A stretch of DNA of 64,000 nucleotides, taken from positions 2,113,001-2,177,000 of the forward strand of contig NZ_CP126080.1 in NCBI RefSeq assembly GCF_030122805.1. The letters run 5' to 3'. Numbering within the stretch: position 1 is the first letter of the stretch; each line of letters opens with the position of its first letter. Of the stretch, positions 21,980 to 61,165 are shown piece after piece. The translations under genes were made by a program, and so were the position numbers. The DNA comes from Mesobacillus sp. AQ2. GTDB taxonomy: Bacteria; Bacillota; Bacilli; Bacillales; Cytobacillaceae. The notes under the pieces were generated by a model. It saw nothing but the letters and a program-made list of their open reading frames with translations, ran no database searches and was not told the DNA's origin.

Positions 21980-22008
21980 TTGCAAAAATTTAGCATAACT
22001 GGGATAAT
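21980..22008 (+). promoter_or_regulatory. SigA-type promoter of the glutaredoxin gene
   Basis: TTGCAA (21980-21985), 17-base spacer, GATAAT (22003-22008), 40 bases before the start codon. Confidence 0.65.
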
Positions 22009-22047
22009 ACATTATAGGGTATAACAAACTTTAAGGAGGCATTTAAA

Positions 22048-22281
22048 ATGAATGATATTACAGTTTACACAACAAACACTTGACCTTACTGCACAATGAT
22101 GAAACAATTCCTTGAGGGTCAAGGATTAAACTACAAAGAAGTTAATGTACAATACGATCAACAAGCTGCACAGAAGCTGGTTGAAGAAACTGGGCAGATG
22201 GGTGTGCCGCAAACGAAAGTGAATGGCAACTGGGTTCTTGGTTTTGACCCGGATACGCTCATGCAGTATGTGAATAAATAA
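22048..22281 (+). CDS. Glutaredoxin-family protein with in-frame TGA at active-site Cys (candidate selenoprotein)
   Basis: Reading from ATG 22048, behind a strong AAGGAGG, gives MNDITVYTTNT, then TGA (22081-22083), PYCTMM and an intact frame to TAA 22281. Bacillus relatives that I remember have NTCPYC here, so TGA replaces the first cysteine (residue 12) of CPYC; the second Cys is residue 15. The cis-proline GVPQT and the GFDP ending are intact, and promoter, ribosome site and terminator are all present. Seventy-seven residues if TGA is decoded as selenocysteine. Sec-containing glutaredoxins are known in some anaerobes. The alternative is a nonsense mutation, with or without translation from ATG 22096. 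No sel genes are in this window. Confidence 0.7.
22109..22125 (+). promoter_or_regulatory. SECIS-like hairpin downstream of the in-frame TGA
   Basis: TCCTTGA (22109-22115), loop GGG, TCAAGGA (22119-22125): seven perfect pairs with G at the first loop positions. The loop begins 32 bases after the TGA, inside the 16-37 base range remembered for bacterial SECIS elements. A competing stem, CTTGACC (22079-22085, spanning the TGA) with GGTCAAG, also exists. Confidence 0.45.
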
Positions 22282-22293
22282 GTTTTAAACAAC

Positions 22294-22320
22294 AAAAAGG
22301 GGCTTCGGCCTCTTTTTTTT
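22294..22320 (+). terminator. Terminator after the glutaredoxin gene
   Basis: AAAAAGGGGC-ttcg-GCCTCTTTTT stem with one G-T pair and a run of eight T. Confidence 0.88.
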
Positions 22321-23643: not shown

Positions 23644-24660
23644 ATGGAGATGCAAAAGGATCTTATTGTCGGCGGCGTAGAACTTAAATGGGACTTAAAC
23701 TCAGGTCAAGTATTGTTCGAGGGTGGGGACGTTGTTTTTTTCTGGGTGTCTGCAATGAAAACGTTCTTTGACACAATCAATGAAATTACAGGTGAAGAAG
23801 CAACAAACCTTGTACTAGAGGCCACTGGTTTCCGACAGGGCATCATCGTTGGTGAAGGATTCAAGGAAATGAAGGAAATCAATACATCCAATGTTGTGGA
23901 ATGGCTGTCAAATACATATGTACCAGCAGGATGGGGATACGTAAGTGTTGAGGAAATGAATGTAAATACAAAAAACTTCACCTTATATATTCAAGATGAC
24001 TGGGAATACAAAATGAACAAATTGGGTTCCGAGGAAAAGCAGGGTATTTTCGTTCCTGCGCATTATGCTGGGGTTTTTACAGGATTATTCGGAAGTAACT
24101 TCTGGTATAAGATCATTAAATACCAAAATGAATCCAATCCATATACAGTTGTGGAATACTTCCCATCTGTCATGAGTATTCAACAAAACATACGTAGGTT
24201 GGCAAGTAGACAAGAAGATAAACATATCCAGGAATTAGAGAGCCTGGTAGCCGAAAAAACGAATATGCTCCAGGATCTGGTAAAGGAGTTATCCTCTCCG
24301 ATGATTCCAGTGCTTGAGGGTATAGTCGTCGTTCCATTGATTGGCAGATATGATGAGAACCGTGCAGAGGATTTGATTAACAACACATTGAATAATCTGC
24401 CAAAGTATCATACAAGATACGTTTTACTTGATCTCACAGGTTTGAACAAGGACATATCCCCATACACTGCAGAGTTGATAGATAAGCTTGGTTCAGCTGC
24501 CAGATTGTTAGGTGTGGAAGTCATTCTTGTAGGGATTTCCGCCGAACTGGCAATGGTGATCACCGAAACAATGACCAGACTGAAAAAATATGAATGCCTC
24601 CAGACCCTTCAGCACGGAATCTATTACGCTCTAGGTAAAAGCGGTAAAAGCATTGTATAG
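23644..24660 (+). CDS. RsbR-like stressosome protein with STAS domain
   Basis: 338 residues. Residues 1-190 form a sensory domain of the V4R or heme-type kind (LVLEATGFRQGIIVGEGF, then VPAHYAGVFTGLFG). A coiled-coil linker spans about 190-215 and a C-terminal STAS domain 222-335 (VVPLIGRYDENRAEDLI, VLLDLTGLNKDISPYTAELI, LLGVEVILVGISAELA). This order is typical of RsbR paralogs, which sit in stressosomes with RsbS and are phosphorylated by RsbT. Candidate phospho-sites are Thr in DLTG and the Ser/Thr in ISPYT. No rsbS/T genes are adjacent. AGTGAGGGATTTAA precedes ATG. Confidence 0.8.
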   Translation: MEMQKDLIVGGVELKWDLNSGQVLFEGGDVVFFWVSAMKTFFDTINEITGEEATNLVLEATGFRQGIIVGEGFKEMKEINTSNVVEWLSNTYVPAGWGYVSVEEMNVNTKNFTLYIQDDWEYKMNKLGSEEKQGIFVPAHYAGVFTGLFGSNFWYKIIKYQNESNPYTVVEYFPSVMSIQQNIRRLASRQEDKHIQELESLVAEKTNMLQDLVKELSSPMIPVLEGIVVVPLIGRYDENRAEDLINNTLNNLPKYHTRYVLLDLTGLNKDISPYTAELIDKLGSAARLLGVEVILVGISAELAMVITETMTRLKKYECLQTLQHGIYYALGKSGKSIV

Positions 24661-60856: not shown

Positions 60857-61017
60857 GTTTCCTCGTTGGGATTTTTTTTAGGTTAAGGTAAGCCTCCAGT
60901 GTCTCACAAGACTCCGTAAGGTAGACTTTGTTCAAAGCAGTAAACGTAAACTATGACCAAGAAATGTTTGACAAAGGAAAAAGAAAGGCGTAGCTTATTA
61001 TATTATTCCCATATAGA

Positions 61018-61165
61018 CCTTTTTGCCGAATCTTTGAGCGGGGGAACCAATTTCTGATAAACATTGTTTATCTTGGGGTGAATCTTAGCATATTAAAGCT
61101 AGGAAGGGATACTCTCAGTCCCTAATCCGACAGCTAACTCCGCAGGTGCTATAGAGAGAAGGGTT
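61018..61165 (+). promoter_or_regulatory. c-di-AMP riboswitch (ydaO/yuaA family)
   Basis: The conserved cores occur in order: GCCGAATCTT, GGGGGAACCAATTT, TTGGGGTGAATCTT, AGGAAGGGATACTCT, AGTCCCTAATCCGACAGCTAACTCCGCAGG (read in pieces at about 61110-61145) and the closing GAGAGAAGG. This is the ydaO/yuaA class that senses c-di-AMP and turns off potassium uptake genes. It is followed by a terminator and ktrA, the classical target. A TTGACA at 60968 may belong to its promoter. Confidence 0.93.

Follow-up and report, generated by a model that had tools for sequence, protein, structure and literature searches.

A glutaredoxin gene with an in-frame UGA codon

The analysed window, i.e. the whole stretch of 64,000 nt, represents positions C1:2113001-2177000 of the 4.80 Mb single-contig genome of Mesobacillus sp. 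AQ2. The following features were assigned to the locus under study and its flanks.

21980..22008, + strand, weak promoter-like pair TTGCAA-17-GATAAT (9 of 12 consensus letters)
22033..22039, + strand, putative ribosome binding site AAGGAGG of the full-length start, 8 bases 5′ of the ATG
22048..22281, + strand, predicted glutaredoxin selenoprotein gene (frame of 78 codons, 77 residues, Sec at position 12, stop TAA)
22081..22083, + strand, UGA codon predicted to be read as selenocysteine 12 (UPYC motif; TNT-TGA-PYC)
22090..22092, + strand, TGC codon of the putative resolving Cys15, which is invariant in an alignment of 41 proteins (A2)
22109..22125, + strand, putative SECIS apical hairpin UCCUUGA-GGG-UCAAGGA (stem of 7 bp, G-first loop of 3 bases, 28-44 bases from the T of the TGA)
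22294..22320, + strand, putative rho-independent terminator AAAAAGGGGC-TTCG-GCCTCTTTTT (arm also given as GCCTCTTTTTTTT), identified by eye

Translation of 22048-22281 yields MNDITVYTTNT*PYCTMMKQFLEGQG...VNK*, in which the TGA at 22081-22083 is the only internal one, just as the sequence-only reading had described, i.e. an otherwise intact glutaredoxin frame with one TGA at codon 12. With C in place of U, the protein belongs to the glutaredoxins, matching PF00462 with 66.8 bits (gathering score 22.9). If the TGA encodes Sec, the motif is UPYC, with Sec at the first position of UxxC in a PF00462 protein, which is how a table of PMC13188914 defines a Sec-glutaredoxin. The values for more narrowly defined families were lower. 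P0001, again with C for U, reached 86.3 bits for the YruB-family glutaredoxins (TIGR02196), just below the cut-off of 88.55. The UXX-star families are also glutaredoxin-like (seleno)proteins, but P0001 stayed below their cut-offs (NF041212, 48.2 versus 66 bits; NF041114, 23.1 versus 72; NF041211, 31.7 versus 100).

The flanking signals differ in quality. A strong ribosome site had been proposed and is present; the 34 TGA genes that were inspected also have GGAGG or AGGAG in front of their start. The proposed promoter exists as a pair of hexamers, yet four such sites in 901 bases are no more than the 2.6 ± 1.8 found in shuffled sequences, and the pair is thus not significant. The terminator is visible by eye and GCCTCTTTT was read by eye 3′ of 18 of the 34 TGA genes, but the scanner did not list a terminator at 22294-22320. 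Elsewhere in the window, a c-di-AMP riboswitch (ydaO/yuaA leader) is located at 61014-61163 (86.9 bits).

Among the database records without U are 61-residue versions that begin at Met17 (P0036, P0050, P0059, and P0072), and the gene is therefore at least partly misannotated. These versions would be correct if translation started at Met17 (ATG at 22096), yielding a protein of 61 residues without the active site. Several observations argue against this start. Relatives have the ribosome site in front of Met1, while none was seen by eye in front of 22096, and a pN/pS of 0.07 indicates purifying selection on codons 2-11. In addition, the redox center would be missing from a product that has no UPYC. 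The short start was thus rejected as extremely improbable, and translation from Met1 is assumed below.

Codon 12 in related genomes

The sequence-only reading had suggested an alignment of homologs, to see whether Cys and TGA alternate at this codon. Both were indeed found. In 71 named loci, which were gathered by peptide patterns and tblastn, codon 12 is TGA in 32 and TGT or TGC in 39, and no other codon occurs; the gene thus has an in-frame UGA where homologs have Cys, as is expected of a bacterial selenoprotein gene. Mesobacillus, Neobacillus, Cytobacillus, and Bacillus are among the names in the record titles of the TGA loci. Close TGA copies were found in at least 31 of 151 related genomes, together with one divergent copy (G122), and each was confirmed at codon 12. 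Within the genus, TGA is the rule, with a copy in 19 of the 20 genomes; the remaining genome is 66% complete. A stop-free copy with an identity of 69-77% is also among the matches listed for each of these 20 genomes. The stop-free paralog of the AQ2 genome (C1:1958505-1958729) is 71% identical, begins at the same start, and has CPYC instead of UPYC.

A TGA at this position might also be due to a nonsense mutation in a Cys glutaredoxin gene or to an error of sequencing. The Cys paralog means that a loss might be tolerated, and stop-bearing copies do exist, i.e. L129 and L130 (G027 and G063), which have TAA elsewhere in the frame and, with Cys at codon 12, were rejected as Sec forms. However, the recurrence of TGA at exactly codon 12 in 32 of the 71 named loci shows that its position at the redox Cys is not due to chance, as the earlier reading had supposed for random nonsense mutations. 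The 40 distinct TGA genes have a pN/pS ratio of 0.07 before and 0.13 after the block of TGA and hairpin, and the hairpin is frozen at synonymous sites (see below). Scattered disabling changes had been named as an argument against the Sec reading; instead, purifying selection acts on the frame 3′ of the TGA, and one of the TGA copies lacks its 5′ end. In this copy (L170:1290-1330, in G462; the same gene is present in L101 and L153), the start and the first codons are gone and the hairpin is intact. Conservation over many separate assemblies has in effect already refuted a nonsense mutation or a sequencing error, which we rejected as having virtually no chance of being correct.

Several side observations concern the loci compared. 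Three of them (L054, L096, and L088) are of the Bacillaceae type, yet have the titles Chryseobacterium sp. ISL-80 and Pseudomonas sp. ISL-84, which are probably wrong. Genes that we take to be RsbR-like are located near the Sec and the Cys glutaredoxin genes (window 23644-24660 and L124:3935-4957), and their mutual identity of about 55% hints at a segmental duplication. The gene neighborhood gave no clue to the function, as AAA/YnfA/lepB neighbors were found only beside near-identical glutaredoxins in the loci compared.

A conserved hairpin downstream of the UGA

A SECIS element is described in PMC9312934 as a stem-loop immediately 3′ of the UGA. The hairpin at 22109-22125, which the sequence-only reading had missed, is the strongest evidence for a reading of the UGA as Sec. 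Its 7-bp stem, its loop with G at the first position, and its distance (+28 to +44) are as expected of the SECIS element of a bacterial selenoprotein gene.

The 40 distinct TGA genes contain no synonymous change in codons 17-26, while pS is 0.62 for codons 2-11 and 0.68 for codons 27-74; this count is without the copy with the broken 5′ end (L101/L153/L170), which has GGG for GGA at codon 26. For 43 Cys genes, the pS value over codons 17-26 is 0.88. All seven pairs and the loop G (UCCUUGA-GNN-UCAAGGA) are retained in 69 of 69 TGA records (32 distinct sequences of 66 bases), compared with three of 71 Cys records, all from one species (G083, Niallia endozanthoxylica).

Double changes were also found. 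All 210 cells of the hairpin are paired, and two pairs show changes on both sides, which come from two sequences of one distant lineage, L131 and L166. These two (52% and 49% identical) have UCCUUUC-GGA-GGAAGGA and UCCUUUC-GGA-GAAAGGA, respectively, at the same place. When the partner was slid by -2 columns, the number of double changes was equal (2 pairs, 4 cells), but only 29% of the cells were paired, versus 100%. The covariation score was reached in none of 500 shuffles, a control that ignores relatedness. L131 (G122) and L166 (G304), both from other families of the order, represent a second, distant lineage of Sec-glutaredoxins, which has UPHC and a hairpin of its own at the same distance.

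The geometry is unique in the window, as only one of the 2624 TGAs on both strands has it; a hairpin of this kind anywhere 16-37 bases downstream accompanies 18 of the 2624. Synonymous recoding produced a stem with all seven pairs in 412 of 20000 cases. The folding energy, which was equaled by 464 of 3000 recodings, is unremarkable and was dropped as evidence for a SECIS element. When a longer stretch was folded, a different helix, one that contains the UGA, was preferred (z -1.74). Based on its conservation, and not on its stability, we conclude that the hairpin 28-44 bases past the TGA is very probably a SECIS element.

The selenocysteine machinery and other TGA genes

Searching the same genome for sel genes had been proposed as a check, and the machinery for Sec is complete. 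The values for selA (567.6 bits, cut-off 267.9), selB (361.7 bits, cut-off 242.25), and selD (397.3 bits, cut-off 125) are all above the curated cut-offs, as is that for tRNA-Sec at C1:2066060-2066152 (56.1 bits, cut-off 47), for which ARAGORN gave the anticodon tca.

Additional genes of the genome contain an in-frame TGA. In selD it is located in GUGCK. The FdhA gene L141 (C1:2864274-2866295, - strand) scored 779.6 bits, i.e. above the FdhA cut-off, and the FdhA-like gene L145 (C1:4683046-4683798, - strand) 195.3 bits, i.e. below it; three further genes above this cut-off have no in-frame TGA. A fourth TGA gene, of the Rdx/SelW type, is located between selA and selD (L125:5039-5275, - strand). 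It encodes 78 residues (PF10262, 80.4 bits) and has its TGA in CMMU (CxxU), followed by the hairpin CCGCGA-GTC-TCGCGG; it is thus predicted to be a further selenoprotein gene. The predicted folds 3′ of the TGAs of selD, Rdx, and L145 include hairpins with G-led loops. For L141, the expected hairpin was seen by eye only, and the predicted fold prefers other helices. GGTCT follows the TGAs of both L141 and L145, as in E. coli fdhF. With the glutaredoxin, SelD, FdhA, the FdhA-like protein, and the Rdx/SelW protein, at least five selenoproteins are predicted for this genome.

Co-occurrence of TGA copies and selB

Among the 151 related genomes, selA was above the cut-off in 112 and selB in 110. For these relatives, the latter value contradicts the earlier statement that Bacillaceae rarely have selenoproteins.

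We compared the distribution of TGA copies with that of selB in two surveys that share genomes; incomplete genomes may miss selB, and all p values ignore relatedness. Among the matches listed, TGA copies occurred in 32 of 110 genomes with selB and in 0 of 41 without (p = 1.1e-5). In the second survey, which covered 397 genomes of the order, the values were 15 of 179 with selB, including the copy of G462 with the broken 5′ end, and 0 of 218 without (p = 4.6e-6). The TGA of G154 terminates its gene, and it was therefore rejected as a Sec codon and left out of the count. Outside of the genus, the values were 13 of 91 versus 0 of 40 in the first survey (among the matches listed; p = 0.0095) and 5 of 169 versus 0 of 218 in the second (p = 0.015), and the co-occurrence is weaker there.

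The UGA could be read by another route, e.g. by a suppressor tRNA that inserts Trp or Cys, with the hairpin merely stimulating readthrough. Three observations disagree with this explanation, which we regard as very improbable. TGA copies are confined to genomes with selB in both surveys (among the matches listed), the genome G156, without a selB match at E <= 1e-60, has TGT and has lost the loop G, and the further TGA genes of the AQ2 genome fit known selenoprotein families.

Two genomes deviate in their sel genes. In G064 (C1:351054-352274; also L134), the match to selB does not extend beyond position 387 of 581, and the open frame comprises 481 aa. With a Cys codon and only four of seven hairpin pairs in the glutaredoxin gene of this genome, these features possibly indicate an ongoing loss of Sec use. 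G015 has selA in two overlapping pieces (C1:1845480-1846866) despite a TGA glutaredoxin, which we attribute to a frameshift or an assembly error.

Structure and relation to known glutaredoxins

An AlphaFold model of the protein had a pLDDT of 95.8 and a pTM of 0.84, and its best matches in the PDB are glutaredoxins, predicting a glutaredoxin fold. By sequence, the best PDB match is 7c10 (profile E 3.7e-20), i.e. cGrx1 of Clostridium (Alkaliphilus) oremlandii (7c10, 7c12). The two proteins share the fold, the U(or C)PxC motif, and a similar length, with 36-37% identity and a TM to the query of 0.83-0.84. In contrast, the solved chain of 7c10 has CPHC instead of UPYC, and the host of our protein belongs to the Bacillaceae. 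In PMC7642778, cGrx1 is described as having a native catalytic Sec in U(or C)PXC, with the first residue as the attacking and the second as the resolving one, and it is proposed to be the reductant of the selenoprotein MsrA.

The YruB-type Cys glutaredoxins of Bacillaceae (TIGR02196) include the 71% identical paralog of the AQ2 genome, but have a Cys codon and have not kept the hairpin sequence. The thioredoxin-like protein BC3987 (3zij, 3zit) and NrdH redoxins (1h75, 4fiw) are similar in size and fold (TM 0.81-0.90), yet they are only 28-33% identical, are named thioredoxin-like or NrdH, and no Sec is named for them.

The sequence-only reading had stated that Sec-glutaredoxins are known in certain anaerobes. 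PMC1794560 lists three Sec-glutaredoxins in all, with Geobacter and clostridia as hosts in the part consulted, and three selenoproteins of Bacillales. By titles and the beginnings of abstracts, no paper on a Sec-glutaredoxin in Bacillaceae was found; supplements, e.g. the species tables of PMC5029168, may hold cases. A literature search for Mesobacillus with selenocysteine found none.

Sec and Cys forms in the protein tree

The protein tree is based on 74 columns and poorly resolved. Its main TGA cluster (support 81/83) contains 28 TGA rows and three Cys rows (G083, G047, and G156), while seven TGA rows lie outside of it at an unresolved fork. Six changes between the U and C states were counted (4-7 over the bootstraps), and the Sec state may have a single origin. 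The three Cys rows differ in their hairpins. G083 has an intact hairpin and selB, G047 has selB, five of seven pairs, and no loop G, and G156 has kept the stem. This is the appearance expected of hairpin decay after a change from Sec to Cys, a direction that we infer.

Discussion

The analysis was begun with a candidate, i.e. a selenocysteine glutaredoxin with TGA at the first Cys of CPYC, and none of the genomic tests has refuted it. We conclude, with a probability of roughly 0.93, that the gene encodes a selenoprotein glutaredoxin, a dithiol-type redoxin with Sec at codon 12 directed by SelB and the hairpin. The frame, the conserved UGA, the complete Sec machinery, the selection on the hairpin, and the predicted fold were established by computation; that selenium is actually incorporated is deduced from the sequences.

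The hairpin of the mRNA, 28-44 bases downstream of the UGA, would hold SelB and Sec-tRNA(Sec), which would insert Sec at codon 12. In analogy to cGrx1, the catalytic cycle would probably involve an attack of the Sec12 selenolate on a disulfide or selenenyl-sulfide of the target and a subsequent resolution of the intermediate by Cys15. The GG-C-D letters of the glutathione-bound cGrx2 (4tr0) are absent and replaced by GFDPD, and for this reason our guess is that thioredoxin reductase or another low-molecular-weight thiol, and not glutathione, supplies the electrons. To our knowledge, Bacillaceae are generally without glutathione and use bacillithiol.

A more far-reaching idea is that the Sec/Cys pair found across the genus could be a selenium-dependent redox switch of a glutathione-free cell. 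In the presence of selenium, the Sec form would replace the Cys paralog and be driven by thioredoxin reductase or bacillithiol, and G083, G047, and G156 would be reversals from Sec to Cys, caught with the SECIS element intact, partly decayed, and without the loop G. This scenario is speculative, and we consider it rather unlikely in its entirety.

The protein belongs to a known family, the Sec-glutaredoxins, and represents a new conserved branch, with the gene and its RNA signal shared by about thirty related genomes. It extends the short list of Sec-glutaredoxins, for which the consulted part of PMC1794560 names Geobacter and clostridia as hosts. Ordinary gene calling loses the gene, leaving fragments without the active site in the databases. 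Closely related TGA and Cys copies with intact, partly decayed, or lost hairpins form a natural series for the decay of a SECIS element after a change from Sec to Cys, and the same series bears on the features that SelB has to recognize in this group.
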